47,833 bases of DNA, taken from Calditrichota bacterium (GTDB taxonomy: Bacteria; CLD3). The DNA is taken from assembly GCA_008501735.1 (NCBI GenBank), contig QQUF01000050.1, forward strand, positions 1 through 47,833, read 5' to 3'. Both the position numbers and the translations under genes were made by a program. Positions 8,132 to 17,550 of this stretch are shown piece by piece (within the stretch, counting starts at the first letter, position 1; each line of letters starts with the position of its first letter). The notes below the pieces were generated by a model that had not been told where the DNA came from, ran no database searches, and saw only the letters and a program-made list of their open reading frames with translations.

Positions 8132-8707
8132 TTACTCAATCATTAAAGGCTTGACCACAATTCCTTTTGTACCTTTTTCTAAGACACAAAACTCTTCGCA
8201 GATTCCACAGCCTGTGCATTCTTCGTCAATTACAATTGGCTTATTAAATTTGAATTTAATTGCTGTTCTTTTGAGAGGACAAGCGTCGTAACAAGTCATA
8301 CAAAGACTGCCGTTAAAGGAAAGGCATTTATCTTTTTGGAGTTCGGCAAGTCCTATTTTGGGGAAAGTCAAAGTATCATTAAAAACAAGTGCTTCGTCTT
8401 CGCAAACTTTTATGCAATCCAAAGTTTCGCACATTTGACACGCTTTTTCGGAAGGATTTATCGAAGGCAATTCTTTTTTGAAAGGCTTTTCAAAAGTTAC
8501 GCGAATTGCTTCGGCTGGACAAACTTTTACACATTCGCCACAAGTCGTGCATTTTTCAGCAAAATTTGCAACTGCTCCTGGTGGGCGAATTAATTTGGGA
8601 AAATCCGAAAAATCTTCTTCGTTAGGCAGCCGTTTATCAATTGATTCTGCGGCTGCTCCAACTGCTAATTTCCAAGATTTTCTAAAAAAGTCTTTACGAG
8701 AAACCAC
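8132..8707 (-). CDS. Four-cluster ferredoxin of the NapF/NapG type
   Basis: A 191-residue iron-sulfur protein, last gene of the nap operon. It starts at GTG 8707, one base after the napB stop. Four cysteine motifs are visible: CTTCGECVKVC, CQMCETLDCIKVC, CLSFNGSLCMTCYDAC and CTGCGICEEFC. The same order and spacing occur in the NapG of this operon (10021-10671), and both share the RPPGA lead-in, so this is a NapG paralogue or a NapF. The N terminus SRKDFFRKS lacks a true twin arginine, unlike NapG, so it may stay in the cytoplasm as NapF proteins do. NapF is linked to maturation of NapA and electron supply; the role here is inferred from the operon. Confidence 0.8.
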   Translation of the reverse strand: MVSRKDFFRKSWKLAVGAAAESIDKRLPNEEDFSDFPKLIRPPGAVANFAEKCTTCGECVKVCPAEAIRVTFEKPFKKELPSINPSEKACQMCETLDCIKVCEDEALVFNDTLTFPKIGLAELQKDKCLSFNGSLCMTCYDACPLKRTAIKFKFNKPIVIDEECTGCGICEEFCVLEKGTKGIVVKPLMIE

Positions 8708-8708
8708 G

Positions 8709-9107
8709 TTAGTTACTTGGTGTATATTTTTTGAAATTACTATCTACTTTAAAATCGTCTTTTGTTGCTGTTTCATCATTGTCAGGAATGTGACATTGCA
8801 GACAATTTTTCCTTTCAGGGTGAGAAGTTTGCGGAATATTTATTCCTTCCCTTACTGTGCTGTGGCAATCAAGACAATTTTTTCCGCCATTTTCAGTGAT
8901 AACGTGACCATGTTCACCTAAAGAAGGATGAGTTTTTGGTAACATTGGAGGAGCTCCGAAATAAGCAACGTGGTCTTTTTCTACAAGCTCAAGATTCTTT
9001 TGGTCAGTTTCAGTTATGGGAATTGTTGGCTCTTTATCTTGCTTAGAACAAGCTACAAAAAGCATCAAAAAGATAATTCCAAATCCAATAAAAATTTTAC
9101 TAAGCAT
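8709..9107 (-). CDS. napB: Periplasmic nitrate reductase di-haem cytochrome subunit NapB (lipoprotein form)
   Basis: A 132-residue protein with two haem c motifs, CLDCH (78-82) and CLQCH (102-106), plus the NapB marker GAPPMLPKTHPS just upstream. The His after PKT and the His in TSHPER are the probable distal ligands. NapB passes electrons to the NapA catalytic subunit. Unlike the soluble proteobacterial form, this one starts with a lipobox (MLFVAC, Cys20), so it should be tethered to a membrane. A good GGAGT ribosome-binding site precedes the ATG, and napH ends 3 bp upstream. Confidence 0.92.
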   Translation of the reverse strand: MLSKIFIGFGIIFLMLFVACSKQDKEPTIPITETDQKNLELVEKDHVAYFGAPPMLPKTHPSLGEHGHVITENGGKNCLDCHSTVREGINIPQTSHPERKNCLQCHIPDNDETATKDDFKVDSNFKKYTPSN

Positions 9108-9110
9108 TTT

Positions 9111-10019
9111 TTACTCCTGCTTTATTTTTAATCCTAATTTTAACGCATTTTCGGGACAAGCATCAACACAGTTCATACAATTCGTGCAAACACCATCGTT
9201 AACCCATTTTGTGGTTCCTTTTACAGGTTCTTTAAGAACTTCCGAAACCAAGCACACTTTGAAACAATCACCACAACTTGTGCAAACTTCGTGGTCGATT
9301 TTTATTTTTGTCGGTGAAGTTTTGTGAACAATAGAGTAAAAAGCTCCAACAGGACAAGTGGACTTACACCACCAACCTTTTGCAACAAAAACATCAATCA
9401 AAAAAATTGCAAAAATCAGCCACAAAGAACTATTGAAAAGAAATCGCCATTCTGTTTCGTTTCGACCTTCAATCAAAAATTCTTTTGAAGTTCCAAAATC
9501 TTCTCCCGAACCTAAAGCCAATTCGCTACCAAATTCGCTTCCTTGAAAATCAACCCCAAGTGCAATATTTTGGCTAATAATTCCAATTGGCGAAATCCAT
9601 TCAAAAACTGGCTTTGAAGTTACTAAGCTCAAAACTAACAAAACTCCAAGAACCCAATATTTTTGAGAATCGGAAGGTTTATAATTAAAAACTCCAAACT
9701 TGTCGTGTAACTTTTCCGAAATTTCTGTCAGAATAAAAATCGGGCAAATCCACGAACAAAAAACTCTCCCGCCAACCAAAAAATAAAATCCCAAAATTAA
9801 AATTGCACTTACGAGAAGTGGAAGGTAAATCGTTTTGGTCGCCAAAGTGTAATCCAAAAAAGCAAAAGGGTCAGTGAGCGAAATTCCAAAAATCTCACTC
9901 GAAATCAGAGTCCCTTTGAAAAATGAGAATCCAAAAATCGGAGTCATCAAAAGTAAAATTACACCGATTTGAACAATTCTTCTTGTGATTTTCCACTTGT
10001 TATTTTTTACCCAATTCAT
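9111..10019 (-). CDS. napH: NapH-type membrane ferredoxin (quinol dehydrogenase component)
   Basis: A 302-residue integral membrane protein with four to five predicted helices, for example residues about 14-35, 50-85 and 125-145. The cytoplasmic CxxxCP motifs FCSWICP and CKSTCP are typical of NapH. The C-terminal tail holds two 4Fe-4S motifs, CTSCGDCFKVC and CTNCMNCVDACP. With NapG it forms the NapGH electron-transfer module that takes electrons from the quinone pool and can substitute for NapC, which is absent here. The spacing to napG is one base and to napB three bases, so the genes are co-translated. Confidence 0.92.
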   Translation of the reverse strand: MNWVKNNKWKITRRIVQIGVILLLMTPIFGFSFFKGTLISSEIFGISLTDPFAFLDYTLATKTIYLPLLVSAILILGFYFLVGGRVFCSWICPIFILTEISEKLHDKFGVFNYKPSDSQKYWVLGVLLVLSLVTSKPVFEWISPIGIISQNIALGVDFQGSEFGSELALGSGEDFGTSKEFLIEGRNETEWRFLFNSSLWLIFAIFLIDVFVAKGWWCKSTCPVGAFYSIVHKTSPTKIKIDHEVCTSCGDCFKVCLVSEVLKEPVKGTTKWVNDGVCTNCMNCVDACPENALKLGLKIKQE

Positions 10020-10020
10020 C

Positions 10021-10671
10021 TTAAGACGTTACTCCTTCATTTAAGTAGAAGTAGTGTTTTGCTTTGTCGCCTTTTTGAGTCTGAATTACCGTAATTGCAG
10101 AATTATCCAAAGGGCAAGCATTTTCACAAATTCCGCAACCTGTGCAAGCGTCTTTGTGGACAACAGGTTCAAAAATTGTGTGTTTGCCAGTCGCTTTGTT
10201 TTCTTGCTTGTTTAAAGTGATTGCATTGTCAATGAGCGGACAAACTCGGTAACAAATTTCGCACCGAATTCCATTTAGAGAAAGACACGCTTCTCTGTCA
10301 GTAATGACTGCTGTTCCAAGATTTGCTTTGGAAATGTCAGTCAAACTGTGGTCAAGTGCATCAGTTGGACAAGCCTTAATGCAAGGAATGTCTTCACACA
10401 AGTAACAAGGAGTTTCCCTGAAATTTATGTAAGGAGTTCCAGCTGATTTTCCATCTTTTGCACTTCCAAGAATCAACGTGTCGTAAGGGCAATCTTGAAT
10501 ACATTTTCCACAACGAATACAAGCTGCAAGAAAATCTTCTTCACTCAAAGCTCCTGGAGGTCGAAAATAAATTTTATTTTCGCCTCCGAGAAAATTCAAC
10601 AATGAAAATCCGCTTGCACACCCAATCGCGGAAACTGCAAAACTTTTTTTGAAAAAATTTCGTCTGTCCAT
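10021..10671 (-). CDS. napG: NapG-type Tat-exported ferredoxin
   Basis: A 216-residue protein with four 4Fe-4S motifs (CIRCGKCIQDCP, CYLCEDIPCIKACP, CLSLNGIRCEICYRVCP, CTGCGICENACP) and an N-terminal twin-arginine motif, RRNFFKK, so it should be exported folded to the periplasm. It is the partner of NapH in the NapGH quinol-oxidising module. It sits between napA and napH. The 64-bp gap from napA contains a short stretch of AT-rich sequence without an obvious hairpin. Confidence 0.93.
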   Translation of the reverse strand: MDRRNFFKKSFAVSAIGCASGFSLLNFLGGENKIYFRPPGALSEEDFLAACIRCGKCIQDCPYDTLILGSAKDGKSAGTPYINFRETPCYLCEDIPCIKACPTDALDHSLTDISKANLGTAVITDREACLSLNGIRCEICYRVCPLIDNAITLNKQENKATGKHTIFEPVVHKDACTGCGICENACPLDNSAITVIQTQKGDKAKHYFYLNEGVTS

Positions 10672-10735
10672 TTTGAAAAAATCGAGGCTAAGAAAAATAC
10701 TTTAACCTCGAAACTCCATTCAAATCGCCCACAAC

Positions 10736-13249
10736 TTATGCTTTTTCGACTTTTACTGCACATTTTTTGTAATCGGGTTCTTTCGAAATTGGGCAGTAAG
10801 CATCTAAAGTAATTTCATTCACCATTCTTGTTTCGTCAAAGAAAGGAATAAACACATTTCCCAGAGCAGGAATTGACCTTCCATTAACGTCAGCAGGGAA
10901 AACTACGCTTCCTCTTCGCGAGGAAACACGAACAAGGTCGCCTCGTTTGATTCCCATTTTTTTCGCATCGTCAGGATTCAAGTTCACAACAGCACGCGGA
11001 ACAGCTCGGCGAAGTTCAGGAACTCTCATCGTCATACTTCCTGTGTGCCAATGCTCCAAAACTCTTCCTGTGCAAAGCCAGAATGGAAATTCATTGTCTG
11101 GTTCTTCTGCTGCGGGTTCGTAAGGAACTGCCAAAATTGTTGCTTTGTATCCGTTTTTCTTAGCTTTGTAAAATGCGATGTCTCCTTTGTGTTCAGGATG
11201 TTCTTTTTTGAACTTCGCTGCGTAAGGGTCATACTTTGCATTGTAACGCCATTTTACCGAAACGAAACCTTTGTCTTTATCTCCTTCTGGAGATTCCAAA
11301 TTATCCCAAACATCTGTAAAGTCGTGTTTTCCATTAACTTCTTCAGTTTTGCCAACGTAGGGCCAAACAACTCCGTGTTTTTCTCTAAGAACATCGTAAG
11401 GAGCTAAATCTTTCCCGATTCCAAGTGAGAAACTTCTGTATTCTTCCCACATTTCTTTGTAATAATTTTCTTTTGAGTAAGGGTAAATTATGTCAGCTAA
11501 TGTTTTTCCACCTTCAACTTTCATTCGTTTGGCGATTTCATACATTTGCCAAATTTCAGTTTTTGCTTCTCCTGGAGGTTCTGCGATTTTGTTCCAATGT
11601 TGAGTTCTTCTTTCGGCATTTCCATAAGCACCTTCTTTTTCCGTCCACATTGCACAAGGGAAAACTACATCTGCGAGTTCAGTTGACCTTGTTGGGTAAA
11701 CATCGGAAACGATTAAGAAAAATCCTTTGTCTTCTGTTGCTTTGCGGTAACGGTTCAAATGAGGCATTGATTGGAAAGGGTTTGTAACTTGTGTCCACAT
11801 CAACTTCAACTTTTTGTTGTCAACTGCTCTGAACATTTCAACTGTGTGAAGTCCGACCTTTGGATTAATTTTTTCAACAGGAATGTTCCAGATTTTTGCA
11901 GCCATTTCTCTGTGTGCTGCATTTGCAACAACGTGGTCAGCAGGAAGTCTGTGAGCAAAAGTTCCAACTTCACGAGCAGTTCCGCAAGCACTTGGTTGAC
12001 CTGTTAGTGAGAAAGGTCCATTTCCAGGTTTTGAAATTTTGCCTGTCAACAAGTGAATGTTGTAAACAAGGTGATTTGCCCAAGTTCCTCTTGTGTGTTG
12101 GTTGAAGCCCATTGTCCAATACGAACAAACGTTTCTGTCTTTTGAAGAAATGTATCTTGCGGCTTCTACCAATTTTTCTACAGGAACTCCCGAAAGCTCG
12201 GAAACGTATTCGGCAGTGTAAGTACTTACAAATTTTTTGAATTCCTCAAAAGTGTAAGGATACATTGCACCTGCGTTTTTGGGAATGTCTCCATCGCCAT
12301 CTTTAAGTCCATAACCTATGTTATCTTGACCTTTTTTAAAAATAGTATTTTGCTCAACAAATTCTTTGTCATAAAGTTCATTTTCACAAATGTAGTGTGC
12401 AAAATAATTTAAAATTGCAAGGTCAGTTTGTGGTTTAAATTCCAAGTAAAGGTCAGCTTCTTCGGAACTACGAGTGTACTGAGTTCCTAAGTCAACAATT
12501 CTTACTTTGCGAGGATTTTTGAGTTTTGTATCAATAATTCTTGAGAACAAAACAGGGTGCATTTCCGCCATATTTGCTCCCCAAAGGAAGAAAGTATCAG
12601 CGTGTTCTAAGTCCTCGTAACTTCCCATTGGTTCGTCGGATTGGAAAGTTCGCATAAAACCAGCAACAGCACTTGCCATACACATTCTTGCATTTGGCTC
12701 AAGGTGGTTTGAGCCAACTCCATCTTTTGAAACGAAACCAAGCCCAGCTTTCATAAATTTAGATGCTGCGTAACCTTCAAAGATTGTCCATTGACCAGAA
12801 CCAAACATTGAAACAGCATCTGAGCCGTGTTCTTTGAGGATTTCAGTGTATTTTGAAGCCACTAGATCTAATGCTTCGTCCCAAGATGATTCTTCTAATT
12901 TTCCATTTTTACGAATCAAAGGTTTAGTAAGTCTGTCTTTTCCGTAAAGTATTTTTGACAAGAAATAACCTTTTATGCAGTTTAAACCTTTGTTTGAGTA
13001 ACAATCTGGGTCGCCTTTTGTGGCAACAATTTTATCTCCTTTTCTTCCTACAAGAACTCCGCAACCTGTTCCACAAAATCGGCAAACCGATTTATCCCAT
13101 TCCATTCCGAGTTGGTCAAGTTCTCCACCGACTTTTTGAGTAAGAGGTTCTTGAGGTTTTGGCTTTTGTTCACAAGAAGCCAATAATGAAGCGGTAGCAA
13201 TTGAAGCCGCTGTTGATTTTAAGAATTTTCTTCTATCTAAATTCTTCAT
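10736..13249 (-). CDS. napA: Periplasmic nitrate reductase catalytic subunit NapA
   Basis: An 837-residue molybdopterin oxidoreductase that reduces nitrate to nitrite in the periplasm. The N terminus has a Tat motif (DRRKFLK). The next stretch reads LLASC, so a lipid-anchored mature form is possible. Four Cys for the 4Fe-4S cluster are at 56, 59, 63 and 91 (CRFCGTGC ... GLNC). The Mo-ligand Cys is C190 in RMCMASAVAGFMRTF, characteristic of Nap rather than of Asp-ligated Nar or of formate dehydrogenases. The NapA segment EPMGSYEDLEHADTFFLWG follows. The length fits the family. The start overlaps the napD stop by 4 bp. Confidence 0.97.
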   Translation of the reverse strand: MKNLDRRKFLKSTAASIATASLLASCEQKPKPQEPLTQKVGGELDQLGMEWDKSVCRFCGTGCGVLVGRKGDKIVATKGDPDCYSNKGLNCIKGYFLSKILYGKDRLTKPLIRKNGKLEESSWDEALDLVASKYTEILKEHGSDAVSMFGSGQWTIFEGYAASKFMKAGLGFVSKDGVGSNHLEPNARMCMASAVAGFMRTFQSDEPMGSYEDLEHADTFFLWGANMAEMHPVLFSRIIDTKLKNPRKVRIVDLGTQYTRSSEEADLYLEFKPQTDLAILNYFAHYICENELYDKEFVEQNTIFKKGQDNIGYGLKDGDGDIPKNAGAMYPYTFEEFKKFVSTYTAEYVSELSGVPVEKLVEAARYISSKDRNVCSYWTMGFNQHTRGTWANHLVYNIHLLTGKISKPGNGPFSLTGQPSACGTAREVGTFAHRLPADHVVANAAHREMAAKIWNIPVEKINPKVGLHTVEMFRAVDNKKLKLMWTQVTNPFQSMPHLNRYRKATEDKGFFLIVSDVYPTRSTELADVVFPCAMWTEKEGAYGNAERRTQHWNKIAEPPGEAKTEIWQMYEIAKRMKVEGGKTLADIIYPYSKENYYKEMWEEYRSFSLGIGKDLAPYDVLREKHGVVWPYVGKTEEVNGKHDFTDVWDNLESPEGDKDKGFVSVKWRYNAKYDPYAAKFKKEHPEHKGDIAFYKAKKNGYKATILAVPYEPAAEEPDNEFPFWLCTGRVLEHWHTGSMTMRVPELRRAVPRAVVNLNPDDAKKMGIKRGDLVRVSSRRGSVVFPADVNGRSIPALGNVFIPFFDETRMVNEITLDAYCPISKEPDYKKCAVKVEKA

Positions 13250-13554
13250 TTTTGCACCTCTAAAAATGTATTTTTATGTGATTCTTCAATTACTTTTTCA
13301 TATAAATCTTTTGAATCGCCAATCACTTCATCTTCAAAGAAATGAGCAACTAACTCCAAACTTAAGACTCCAACCATAACTCTAATTTCTTCTGCAATTC
13401 CAGCTGCGAGGTCAGTGGTTTCAGTTTCCAAAACAACTGCTAATTTTGATTCTTTTGTGAAAACAATTTCTGCTTCAGGAATTAATTTGATTTGTTCTTT
13501 TACAGATTCGTAAAAAGGAGGATAGCAATTCATAACTATACTTGAAATAACCAT
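13246..13554 (-). CDS. napD: NapD chaperone for NapA
   Basis: A 102-residue small cytoplasmic protein with the NapD ferredoxin-like fold pattern: ISSIVMNC strand, helix with VKEQIKLIPEAEI, LAVVLET strand, then helix AAGIAEEIRVMVGVLSLELVAHFFE. NapD binds the twin-arginine signal of NapA and prevents premature export. It is the first gene of the nap operon and overlaps napA (ATG-A type). It lies about 50 bp downstream of a sigma-54-like element at 13607-13623. Confidence 0.9.
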   Translation of the reverse strand: MVISSIVMNCYPPFYESVKEQIKLIPEAEIVFTKESKLAVVLETETTDLAAGIAEEIRVMVGVLSLELVAHFFEDEVIGDSKDLYEKVIEESHKNTFLEVQK

Positions 13555-14052: not shown

Positions 14053-14505
14053 ATGGATAACTCTGAAAAAGACAAAAACTCACGACGCGACTTTCTTTCT
14101 TCTACACTAATGGGTGTTGGATTGGTAGCAAGTTATGGAGTTGCTACTTACTACGCAACTCAGTTCGTCGCTCCCGAAAACAAAGAAAAAGTTTTCCGCT
14201 CAATTTATGTTTCGCCTGAAAAAAATATTCCTGTTGGAGTCAGTAAAACGATTACAGACTTAAAAGGAAGAAAAATTTCAATTACAAACACAGGTAGTGG
14301 ATTTACAGCTCTTTCTACAGTTTGCACTCATTTGGGTTGCAAAGTTCATTGGGAAGGTAGTAAAAATGCTTTTTATTGCCCTTGTCACGAAGGCTTTTTT
14401 GATTCTGACGGAAATGTTTCTCAAGGTCCACCACCACGTCCTCTCGACAAATATGAAGTTGAGTTAATTGATGGAAATATTTTTGTAAAAATTGAGGAGG
14501 TCTAA
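14053..14505 (+). CDS. Rieske 2Fe-2S protein of a bc/b6f-type complex
   Basis: A 150-residue protein. A twin-arginine motif (SRRDFLSS) is followed by one transmembrane helix (about 18-38), the usual anchor of Rieske subunits. The cluster box 1 CTHLGC has Cys91, His93 and Cys96; box 2 CPCHEGFF has Cys109 and His112, and Cys96-Cys111 would form the disulfide. The PPPRPLDKYEVE segment after box 2 is typical. It accepts electrons from quinol at the Qo site of cytochrome b. The cytochrome b gene follows 2 bp later, and an HAO-type cytochrome replaces the usual cytochrome c1 or f gene. Confidence 0.95.
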   Translation: MDNSEKDKNSRRDFLSSTLMGVGLVASYGVATYYATQFVAPENKEKVFRSIYVSPEKNIPVGVSKTITDLKGRKISITNTGSGFTALSTVCTHLGCKVHWEGSKNAFYCPCHEGFFDSDGNVSQGPPPRPLDKYEVELIDGNIFVKIEEV

Positions 14506-14507
14506 AA

Positions 14508-15563
14508 ATGGACTCTAAAGCAGAAAATAAATCCAATTGGTTTAGCGAAAGAGTTCCGATTGATTTAGAAGGGCTTAAACATATGACGAATGAGCCAGTT
14601 CCAAATCACTTAAAAAGATGGTGGTTTGCACTTGGCGGAACTCCTGCATATTTGTTTACAGTTCAATTGGTTACTGGAATTCTTCTTACGTTTTACTACG
14701 TTCCAACTCCTGAAGCTGCTTACTCAAGTGTTGCGGCAATAACAAACGAAGTTCGTTTTGGTTGGTTCATTCGCGGGATTCATATGTGGTCAGCTAACTT
14801 GATGGTTGTTGCGGTAATTTTGCATATGAGTCGAGTCTTTTTCACTGGAGCTTACCGAAAGCCACGTGAAATGAATTGGATAATTGGAGTTTGTATTTTG
14901 TTAGTTACTGTCACTTTTGGGTTTACAGGTTATTCATTAATTTATGAACAACTCTCTTATTGGGCGGCAACTGTTGGAACTAACATTGCGGAAGGTGTTC
15001 CGCTTATTGGTCCAATGATGGCAAGTTTCATTCGTGGTGGTGACGAAATCGGTGCAAATACCTTGACTCGTTTTTTTGTTTTGCATATCGGAGTCTTGCC
15101 AACTGTAATGTTTATCTTAATTGCTGTTCACGTTTTCTTTATTAGGACTCAAGGTGTAACAGAATTCAAATTCGAAGAACAAGCAGAAGAGAAAGAAGAA
15201 ACTTTCCCATTTTTCCCAAACCATCTTTTGACAGAATTAATTATCGGTTTGCTTTTGATGTACATACTCACAATGCTTGTTGTGATTTTCCCTCCTGAAA
15301 TGCACGAAGCGGCAAATCCTTTGGTAACTCCCGAACACATCAAACCAGAATGGTATTTCTACGCTTCTTTTAGATGGCTCAAAATCAACAGTTTTACTGT
15401 TGGGATTGTTGGGCAAATATTTGCAGTTGTTGCAATTATGGCTTGGCCTTGGATAGACAAGATCTTTAGACGCAAAAATCCAAATTCCGAAATCAGTATT
15501 TTTATCGGAATAATTGGGTTTTTATTTTTCCTCGTTTTGACAATCTGGGAAGCAATGGTTTAA
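14508..15563 (+). CDS. Full-length cytochrome b of a Rieske/cytochrome b complex
   Basis: A 351-residue integral membrane protein with about eight helices. It has two haem b ligand pairs, His92/His106 and His193/His208. The 13- and 14-residue gaps between them match cytochrome b6 rather than mitochondrial cytochrome b. The Qo-site motif is PEWYFYASFRWLK in the C-terminal half, so the b6-like and subunit-IV-like parts are fused in one chain. An acidic insert EEQAEEKEET (about 222-233) sits in the loop between the two parts. It would oxidise menaquinol and bifurcate electrons between the Rieske centre and low-potential haems. It is co-transcribed with the Rieske gene upstream and the octaheme cytochrome 42 bp downstream. 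Confidence 0.95.
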   Translation: MDSKAENKSNWFSERVPIDLEGLKHMTNEPVPNHLKRWWFALGGTPAYLFTVQLVTGILLTFYYVPTPEAAYSSVAAITNEVRFGWFIRGIHMWSANLMVVAVILHMSRVFFTGAYRKPREMNWIIGVCILLVTVTFGFTGYSLIYEQLSYWAATVGTNIAEGVPLIGPMMASFIRGGDEIGANTLTRFFVLHIGVLPTVMFILIAVHVFFIRTQGVTEFKFEEQAEEKEETFPFFPNHLLTELIIGLLLMYILTMLVVIFPPEMHEAANPLVTPEHIKPEWYFYASFRWLKINSFTVGIVGQIFAVVAIMAWPWIDKIFRRKNPNSEISIFIGIIGFLFFLVLTIWEAMV

Positions 15564-15605
15564 GAACTTAATTTTATTTTATTAATAATTTGACAGGTAC
15601 AAAAA

Positions 15606-17081
15606 ATGTCACTCAATACAAAAAGATTCGTTATAGCTTTTCTGAGTTTTATGTTCCTTCTCGCTCTACTTTTGGTAGGCTATATGGAAGGAAACAAAAG
15701 AGTTATGGGGCACAAAGCTGAAATAAAAGTTCCTGACGACAGTAAACAATGTGTGGAATGCCACAACATTAAAACTCCTTCACTAATTGCACAATGGGAA
15801 GATAGTAAACACGCATTAAAAGGCGTTGGTTGTATGGAATGCCACAGTACAGAAGAAGGTGATATTGACGCTTGGGAACATCACGGTTCCAAAATTGCTG
15901 TCGTCGTTTCTCCAAAAGATTGCTCCAAATGTCACTCTCATGAATTTGAAGAATTTCAAAAATCTCACCACGCTACAGCAGGTCAGATACTCGGCTCACT
16001 TGACAACACTTTAGCAGAAGTTGTTGAAGGAAGTATGGCTCACGGAATTGCTTTAAACGGGCAATCTCCAGCAGCAGTTAGCGGTTGTCTGCAATGTCAC
16101 GGTTCAGTTGTAAAAATTATGGATAATGGAAAGCCTGACCCTGCAACTTGGCCAAATACTGGAATTGGAAGAATAAATCCTGATGGCTCAAAAGGCTCTT
16201 GTGCAGCTTGTCACTCAAGACACAGTTTCTCACCAAAACTTGCTCGTAACCCTGAGAACTGCGGAAAATGTCACTTAGGTCCTGACCACCCACAAAAAGA
16301 AATTTATGATGAATCAAAACACGGTGTTGCATTCAGAGCATTCAAAGAATATATGAATCTTGATGCACAACCTTGGAGAGTTGGAATCGAATACACTGCA
16401 GCACCAACTTGTGCAACTTGCCATATGAGTGCTACTGAAACTCAAGCTGTTACTCACGATGTTGGAGATAGAATTTCTTGGACACTTCGTCCACCTGTTT
16501 CTGAAAAAATTGACGCAAAAGCTAAAAAACTTGGAAAAGATGTTTTGAGTTGGGAAGACAGACGTGAAAATATGCAAGACGTTTGTATGAAATGTCATTC
16601 AAGCGATTACGTTGAAGGATTTTATACTCAATTTGACGCGGCAATTAATCTTTACAATGAGAAATTTGGTAAACCTTCAACACACCTCTACAAAATGATG
16701 AAATCTTCTAAGCTTCTATCTGACGTTGCTTTTGATGATGAACTCGAATGGACTTATTTCTACTTATGGCATCACGAAGGTCGTCGTGCAAGACACGGAG
16801 CAGCGATGATGGGACCAGATTACACTCAATGGCACGGATTCTACGAAGTTGCAGAAAGATGGTATATGGAGTTTATTCCACAAACTCGTGAACTTTGTGA
16901 GGAAGCAATCAAACACGGAAATGCTTCTGAGAAAAAAGCTGCTCACGAAGTTCTTAAGGAACTTGACAATATCTTGAATAGAGAAGAGCACGAGTGGTTT
17001 ATCGGTAAAATGTCTGATGAAGAAAAAGCTCGTAGAAAAGCTGCTTCAGAAGAGTTCAAGAAAAGATACGTACAAGATTAA
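15606..17081 (+). CDS. Membrane-anchored HAO-type octaheme cytochrome c
   Basis: A 491-residue protein with exactly eight CxxCH motifs at Cys49, 76, 106, 161, 199, 219, 269 and 327. One N-terminal helix (about 8-26) without a clear cleavage site probably anchors it facing the periplasm. Family markers of hydroxylamine-oxidoreductase-like proteins are visible: CLQCHGS at haem 4 (the catalytic haem), APTCATCHM plus THDVGDRISW around haem 7, and the C-terminal helical part WHHEGRRARHGAAMMGPDYTQWHG. The HAO family oxidises hydroxylamine or hydrazine, or runs in reverse on nitrite. Next to a nitrate reductase and a quinol-oxidising complex, nitrite reduction is the more likely role. Tyr406 is a possible counterpart of the HAO cross-linking tyrosine, but alignment is needed. 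Confidence 0.88.
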   Translation: MSLNTKRFVIAFLSFMFLLALLLVGYMEGNKRVMGHKAEIKVPDDSKQCVECHNIKTPSLIAQWEDSKHALKGVGCMECHSTEEGDIDAWEHHGSKIAVVVSPKDCSKCHSHEFEEFQKSHHATAGQILGSLDNTLAEVVEGSMAHGIALNGQSPAAVSGCLQCHGSVVKIMDNGKPDPATWPNTGIGRINPDGSKGSCAACHSRHSFSPKLARNPENCGKCHLGPDHPQKEIYDESKHGVAFRAFKEYMNLDAQPWRVGIEYTAAPTCATCHMSATETQAVTHDVGDRISWTLRPPVSEKIDAKAKKLGKDVLSWEDRRENMQDVCMKCHSSDYVEGFYTQFDAAINLYNEKFGKPSTHLYKMMKSSKLLSDVAFDDELEWTYFYLWHHEGRRARHGAAMMGPDYTQWHGFYEVAERWYMEFIPQTRELCEEAIKHGNASEKKAAHEVLKELDNILNREEHEWFIGKMSDEEKARRKAASEEFKKRYVQD

Positions 17082-17104: not shown

Positions 17105-17141
17105 AACTTCGGTGCATAATTTTATTATGCACCGAAGTTTT
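17105..17141 (+). terminator. Terminator of the Rieske/cytochrome b/HAO operon
   Basis: A perfect 16-bp stem from AACTTCGGTGCATAAT to ATTATGCACCGAAGTT with a 3-nt TTT loop, followed by a short T run. It is the longest perfect hairpin in the window, 23 bp after the stop codon. Confidence 0.85.
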
Positions 17142-17172: not shown

Positions 17173-17204
17173 GGCTTTCTTAAATCCTCTAAGAAAGCCT
17201 TTTT
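17173..17204 (+). terminator. Second hairpin with T tract just upstream of the ygbA-like gene
   Basis: A 10-bp stem GGCTTTCTTA / TAAGAAAGCC with a 7-nt loop, followed by TTTTT. It ends only 13 bp before the ATG at 17218, so it is either a second terminator for the octaheme cytochrome operon or a leader attenuator for the next gene. Confidence 0.7.
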
Positions 17205-17217
17205 GAAAGTTTCCCAG

Positions 17218-17550
17218 ATGTTAACCTTAGAGTCCAAAAGAATTTCACGCGAAAGACAAACCATTAAATCTATGATTGAAATTTATTGTGAGTCCAAACA
17301 CTCGCACCCAGAACGAATTTGTTCGAATTGCAAAGAAGTTTTGGACTACTGTAATTTAAGAATTTCAAATTGTGCATTTGGAAACGAAAAACCTGCTTGT
17401 AGCGAATGTCCAATTCATTGCTTCAAACCTGAAATGAAAAGAAGAATCAAAACTATTATGCGTTTTGCTGGACCGAAAATGGTTTTTAGACACCCAATTT
17501 TTAGTCTTTATCACATTCTTGATAAACACAAAAGGGTTAACCTTAACTAA
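17218..17550 (+). CDS. YgbA-family (nitrous oxide-stimulated promoter) protein
   Basis: A 110-residue cysteine-rich cytoplasmic protein of the YgbA_NO family. Markers are I-E-I-Y-C, ERICSNCKEVLDYCNLRISNC, KPACSECPIHCF and MRFAGPKMVFRHP. E. coli ygbA belongs to the NsrR nitric-oxide-stress regulon and is needed for recovery from NO stress. I chose ATG 17218: a TTG at 17203 would add five residues but lies inside the T tract of the preceding hairpin. Its place right after a nitrate/nitrite-reducing gene group suggests it protects against NO leaking from nitrite turnover. Confidence 0.85.
   Translation: MLTLESKRISRERQTIKSMIEIYCESKHSHPERICSNCKEVLDYCNLRISNCAFGNEKPACSECPIHCFKPEMKRRIKTIMRFAGPKMVFRHPIFSLYHILDKHKRVNLN

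Follow-up and report, generated by a model that had tools for sequence, protein, structure and literature searches.

Background

In a 47,833-nucleotide stretch of DNA from a Calditrichota bacterium (hereafter the window), genes for a Rieske protein and a cytochrome b are directly followed by a gene for an octahaem cytochrome c, and no gene for cytochrome c1 or f accompanies them. This raises the question which partner takes the electrons of the Rieske/cytochrome b pair, and for what purpose. A sequence-only reading of the locus had claimed a self-contained menaquinol:nitrite oxidoreductase, with NO or hydroxylamine as other options, whose octahaem enzyme would receive its electrons straight from the bc core. 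We found this claim to be supported by the gene order, by the co-divergence of the three proteins and by a membrane anchor specific to the linked octahaem proteins. From the genes, their families and motifs, the operon and its conservation we infer the complex, its electron route, its substrate and product and its proton coupling. The three genes probably encode one membrane-bound quinol:nitrite oxidoreductase, and this judgement covers both the electron route and nitrite as the substrate.

Results

The operon

The three genes lie on the plus strand at 14053..14505 (Rieske [2Fe-2S] protein, 150 aa; PF00355), 14508..15563 (cytochrome b of the fused b6/subunit IV type, 351 aa; PF00033/PF00032) and 15606..17081 (octahaem cytochrome c of the HAO/IhOCC family, 491 aa; PF13447). 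Open reading frames and Pfam domains agree exactly with the genes as first read, and the tight operon is borne out by gaps of just 2 nt between the Rieske and cytochrome b genes and 42 nt between the cytochrome b and octahaem genes. The proposed shared terminator stands in part: a strong hairpin on the plus strand (~17105..17139; 16-bp stem, -26.3 kcal/mol for a folded 65-nt segment) followed by TTTTG does lie past the third gene, but it was absent from the output of a consensus terminator scan and was recognized as terminator-like by eye and by folding. Promoter-like sites at the operon were at chance level only, and no FNR/DNR-type palindromes with at most 2 mismatches were found upstream of it. 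The first gene past the hairpin (17203..17550, plus strand) encodes a protein of the nitrogen-oxide-responsive YgbA_NO family.

Conservation of the three-gene unit

A search for relatives in one genome per species (84,980 species) yielded more than 500, of which the best 80 were kept; with the window and the nearest relative, genome G001, they make up a set of 82 loci. In 42 of these 82 loci (the best 80 of more than 500 relatives plus two) the Rieske and cytochrome b genes lie directly upstream of the octahaem gene on the same strand; in a few of these linked loci cytochrome b is truncated by the contig start, and contig edges also cut through some unlinked loci. The linked loci come from about seven phyla (Planctomycetota, Gemmatimonadota, Chlamydiota, Acidobacteriota, Nitrospinota, Bacteroidota/Chlorobiota and the host's own), an assignment that follows the record titles of assembled genomes and may contain an occasional mis-binned case. 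On the octahaem tree the linkage requires 4 changes compared to 27.5 with shuffled labels, one locus (L045) being counted as linked in this tree and placed in the unlinked set in the later analyses; its Rieske/b genes are found 3.7 kb downstream of the octahaem gene and its cytochrome b belongs to another clade. The linked cytochromes b fall into a single clade (SH-aLRT 97) that excludes seven further ones; six of these were taken from this genome or from other members of its phylum. The pairwise distances of the Rieske protein, cytochrome b and octahaem protein correlate at 0.88-0.90. Judged by these comparisons of sequences, the three genes are inherited as a unit.

The octahaem gene itself is spread more widely: 101 of 392 sampled Planctomycetota genomes carry one of the same family, Rieske/b-wired or not. 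Some unlinked octahaem genes lie beside other quinol modules, namely NrfD (L029, L044) and NapH-like ferredoxins (L035, L049, L066). A multihaem protein fused to a b561-like membrane domain, encoded after the octahaem gene in the tested locus L032 (11341-13401), is a possible alternative quinol module; similar nine-haem genes follow the octahaem gene in L026, L041 and L053, which like L032 are methanotroph and Thioploca loci. Given such varied neighbours, the octahaem enzyme is a module plugged into different quinol oxidases, and it is for Rieske/b among them that electrogenic function, through the Q-cycle, is known. Genes for Alginate_exp outer-membrane porins (PF13372) also adjoin unlinked octahaem genes (L014, 8506-9816; L045, 11488-12804).

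Rieske protein and cytochrome b

The Rieske protein matches PF00355 (E=1.6e-11) and has a twin-arginine N-terminus (SRRDFLSS) and the cluster motifs CTHLGC and CPCHEGFFD. It carries Gly at H+2 and Phe at H+4 instead of the Ser and Tyr that raise the Rieske potential and whose loss costs ~130 and ~65 mV, respectively (PMC12954380), and neither residue occurs in any of the 37 linked Rieske proteins examined. A low-potential menaquinol complex would be in keeping with this; the anammox protein Kuste4569 differs in having both residues. The same residues bear on electron bifurcation, in which nitrite reduction would be accompanied by the formation of NAD(P)H as proposed for the anammox complex R/b-3; although Kuste4569-4574 likewise combines a Rieske protein, a cytochrome b and an HAO-like protein (PMC12954380), the absence from the operon of an NAD(P) oxidoreductase and of additional multihaem subunits, next to the lack of Ser and Tyr, led us to reject this extremely improbable alternative.

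Cytochrome b matches PF00033 (1.4e-56) and PF00032 (1.6e-11), has about seven transmembrane helices and the PEWY motif, and is predicted to bind its haems through H92/H106 and through H193/H208, the latter pair being spaced by the 14 intervening residues of the b6 type. At the haem ci position, the Cys site of b6-type proteins, it reads FALGG. Most planctomycete linked cytochromes b have the Cys (FCLGG), and Ala (FALGG/WALGG) occurs in this phylum, in Nitrospinota and in most Bacteroidota copies. Compared to canonical bc1 and b6f complexes, the operon thus provides the Rieske protein and the PEWY-containing cytochrome b with two His pairs but not the c1 or f subunit. The claimed lack of the latter holds beyond the operon for cytochrome c1, as PF02167 had no match in the whole genome, nor in G001.

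The octahaem protein

The third protein matches PF13447 (E=9.5e-24; 84.5 bits against a cut-off of 21.9) and contains eight CxxCH motifs (residues 49, 76, 106, 161, 199, 219, 269 and 327), where none of 20,000 shuffled versions had more than two. It has a single transmembrane helix (residues ~8-26) and a weak similarity to PF03264, under the cut-off of that family. Its best solved relative is IhOCC of Ignicoccus (4qo5; sequence E=2.8e-53) with Nitrosomonas HAO next, and a profile search and a fold search agree with this sequence search (4qo5 on top, with E=4e-13 in the fold search, HAO after it). The AlphaFold model (pLDDT 74.8) gave TM-scores of only ~0.3 because it is free of haems. The protein falls within the HAO family near IhOCC, in line with the original assignment.

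The cross-linking Tyr467 of N. europaea HAO sits in the motif ..GGWTYTEGW.. and, in an alignment with the HAO-type paralogues of Ca. Anammoxibacter in which identity is low, corresponds to Trp409 of the octahaem protein. Trp409 is invariant among the relatives; the nearest tyrosine, Tyr406, lies three residues off and is not. As a missing cross-link tyrosine is a published mark of reductive enzymes (PMC12758564), this is good evidence, though not final since identity in the region is low, that the protein belongs to the reductive HAO/IhOCC branch. Hydroxylamine oxidation appears unlikely because the tyrosine of oxidative HAO is not found at the aligned position; identity as an oxidative HAO (hydroxylamine dehydrogenase) was rejected on the same residue. 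A complex running in reverse, in which the octahaem protein would oxidise hydroxylamine or NO and pass the electrons to quinone, could appeal to the membership of the HAO family, but given Trp409, and an adjoining gene for a nitrate reductase rather than an ammonia-oxidising enzyme, we regard it as very improbable.

The N-terminal anchor

The N-terminal anchor of the octahaem protein (residues ~3-33) looks uncleaved. All linked octahaem proteins share this one conserved kind of N-terminal membrane helix, with Lys6, Leu21 and Glu28 identical in 42 of 42, whereas signal peptides prevail among the unlinked ones, two of which (L023, L025) have a lipobox. The generic AxA signal-peptidase rule, which holds for 21 of 42 linked and 35 of 40 unlinked proteins, did not separate the two sets cleanly, and therefore an anchor profile was used. 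With a model built from the planctomycete/gemmatimonad clade, each of the 15 other linked proteins reached 28-48 bits, while 39 of 40 unlinked proteins stayed at or below 10.5 bits; the one high-scoring unlinked protein (L016, 32 bits) has its upstream DNA off the contig. A reciprocal model, trained on no planctomycete, gave 31-51 bits for 14 linked planctomycete loci and at most 2.9 for 16 unlinked ones; several of these test loci repeat loci of the first set, and none belongs to the reciprocal training set. These scores are inflated by phylogenetic relatedness, and the correlation between anchor and linkage may partly stem from the common ancestry of a few clades.

In the simplest reading, the helix would tether the octahaem protein to cytochrome b and stand in for the anchor of c1 or f, and the conserved order, the co-divergence and the linkage-specific anchor together argue for direct coupling within a true complex. 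With this signature, moreover, Rieske/b-wired octahaem proteins can be recognized simply from their sequence.

Genome context

The host genome (4.14 Mb, rated 100% complete) has a single octahaem HAO-like gene, and a search of it returned no NrfA (PF02335), NrfH/NapC (PF03264), Hcp, NirK or NirS. The check suggested earlier, on nrfA, nirS and nirK, thus found all three absent, and of the separate cytochrome c1 and the nrfAH named as arguments against a self-contained enzyme, neither was found. In seven sampled genomes of a sister family the situation is reversed: none has an octahaem gene of the same family, and NrfA is full-length in five, partial in one and a weak match only in one, with a NapC/NrfH-family gene adjoining NrfA in the three genomes where both were mapped; this counts as one evolutionary contrast, not as many.

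Upstream of the Rieske operon and divergent from it lies a complete-looking nap operon (8132-13554, minus strand), with NapD (13246..13554), the periplasmic nitrate reductase NapA (10736..13249; above the TIGR01706 cut-off), NapG (10021..10671), the quinol dehydrogenase subunit NapH (9111..10019), a small NapB-like di-haem lipoprotein (8709..9107; 24.0 bits, below the 25.1-bit cut-off) and another ferredoxin, the second of NapG/NapF-like type. NapA is the likely source of nitrite. As nap has its own NapGH and NapB-like protein, it would not need the Rieske/b pair, which leaves the pair for the octahaem enzyme. Against the favoured reading, no nap genes were found on the 32-kb contig of G001 that bears the operon. 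The window also encodes a MauG-type di-haem cytochrome c peroxidase (PF03150; 22126-23148, minus strand).

Elsewhere the genome encodes a cbb3-type oxidase and two further Rieske/cytochrome b sets. Multiple sets of this kind are known in Nitrospira and anammox bacteria. The second set (L101, C50:107000-119000) has a long-branched cytochrome b and is followed by a different multihaem protein of 327 aa; the third, a Rieske/b6 set, occurs both here (L102, C33) and in G001 (L106, 5413-10301), where a subunit IV-like protein comes next, together with an 884-aa protein with several CxxCH motifs. A like design with a different c-type partner is seen in a sister-family genome (G006), in which Rieske and cytochrome b genes precede a 489-aa multihaem protein of another family (L103, 2910-5898).

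The further sets are of importance for the alternative in which the Rieske/b pair acts as menaquinol-cytochrome c reductase for general use, a soluble carrier supplies a separate octahaem nitrite reductase and the operon is merely shared. Other donors can serve the octahaem enzyme, as there are relatives that lack Rieske/b genes, and a tetrahaem mediator, NapM, has been proposed for Caldithrix (PMC5317091). We nevertheless hold this arrangement to be clearly improbable, since this genome already has other Rieske/b sets, the operon contains no small carrier cytochrome, and order and contact are fixed across many phyla, with a separate cytochrome b clade and a linkage-specific anchor.

Finally, a quinol NO reductase gene adjoins YtfE elsewhere in the genome, which would fit an NO-forming enzyme too. 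The octahaem protein could then take nitrite only to NO, after which the separate quinol NO reductase, with YtfE for repair, would make N2O. This pair is commonly met in detoxification, which weighs against such a pathway. The adjoining YgbA_NO gene speaks for it, as does the formation of NO from nitrite by the anammox HAOr of Kuenenia (PMC12485887); the octahaem protein is, however, just 21-26% identical to the HAO-type paralogues of Ca. Anammoxibacter, compared to 61% for the Rieske/b-linked protein of that organism, and the literature ties the Nitrospira and Caldithrix counterparts to ammonium formation. We consider reduction to NO only unlikely, if the least so of the four alternatives.

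Discussion

In the quinol:nitrite oxidoreductase that we favour, cytochrome b would oxidise (mena)quinol at the periplasmic side, one electron being recycled through its haems in Q-cycle fashion and the other passing to the Rieske cluster. The Rieske head would hand electrons to the octahaem cytochrome, held beside cytochrome b by its N-terminal helix in replacement of cytochrome c1 or f, and the octahaem protein would reduce nitrite from the neighbouring Nap, most likely to ammonium, with NO or hydroxylamine as possible products. That ammonium is the main product has, in our estimation, roughly an even chance. We would go further only tentatively, and with somewhat less than even confidence, in proposing that the Rieske/cytochrome b-octahaem unit is a distinct class of bc complex in some seven phyla, with a diagnostic anchor, in which an anchored terminal enzyme replaces c1 or f and which sustains electrogenic periplasmic nitrite ammonification via the Q-cycle. 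Should this be true, nitrite ammonification would gain a proton-motive site from the dedicated quinol-oxidising bc core wired to its reductase; for Nap and epsilonHao, no evidence of an electrogenic function was reported (PMC5317091).

Comparison with known systems

The idea of a Rieske/cytochrome b-octahaem unit is not new, because papers on Caldithrix and Nitrospira have put it forward and anammox bacteria have a more elaborate version, R/b-3. Apparently new are the linkage-specific anchor, the breadth of about seven phyla and the co-divergence, which we did not find in the open-access literature, in itself weak evidence of novelty.

Caldithrix abyssi, compared here by its published gene description, has at its nap cluster consecutive genes for Rieske, cytochrome b and epsilonHao (Cabys_2558-2556), lacks NrfAH and nearby monohaem cytochrome c genes, and direct transfer from Rieske to Hao was one of the options proposed (PMC5317091, 2017). 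Both systems have the three gene types in one order beside nap, without c1 or NrfAH; the Caldithrix nap lacks NapB and has NapM, whereas nap here is divergent and includes a NapB-like protein. In Nitrospira, an octahaem nitrite reductase (ONR) is encoded beside petBC-like Rieske/cytochrome b genes and quinol-linked reduction of nitrite to ammonia was proposed (PMC6606698, PMC12342949), the genes of a like arrangement being co-expressed, at high levels, when nitrite was the only source of N (PMC6606698). Going by these descriptions, the two share Rieske/cytochrome b genes next to the octahaem gene, but the role of the Nitrospira ONR is assimilatory, while the adjoining Nap suggests respiration here. 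The operon of Ca. Anammoxibacter (L018) is alike in order, in octahaem sequence (61% identity) and in anchor (50.6 bits), its host being a planctomycete of the anammox lineage in whose genome PF13447 has seven other matches. IhOCC of Ignicoccus hospitalis (PDB 4qo5), the best sequence and fold match of the octahaem protein, is archaeal. Lastly, R/b-3 of Kuenenia (Kuste4569-4574) also combines a Rieske protein, a cytochrome b and an HAO-like octahaem protein; there the octahaem subunit comigrates experimentally with the complex (PMC12954380), and R/b-3 is set apart by its split b6/SUIV, its extra multihaem and NAD(P) reductase subunits and its high-potential Rieske protein.
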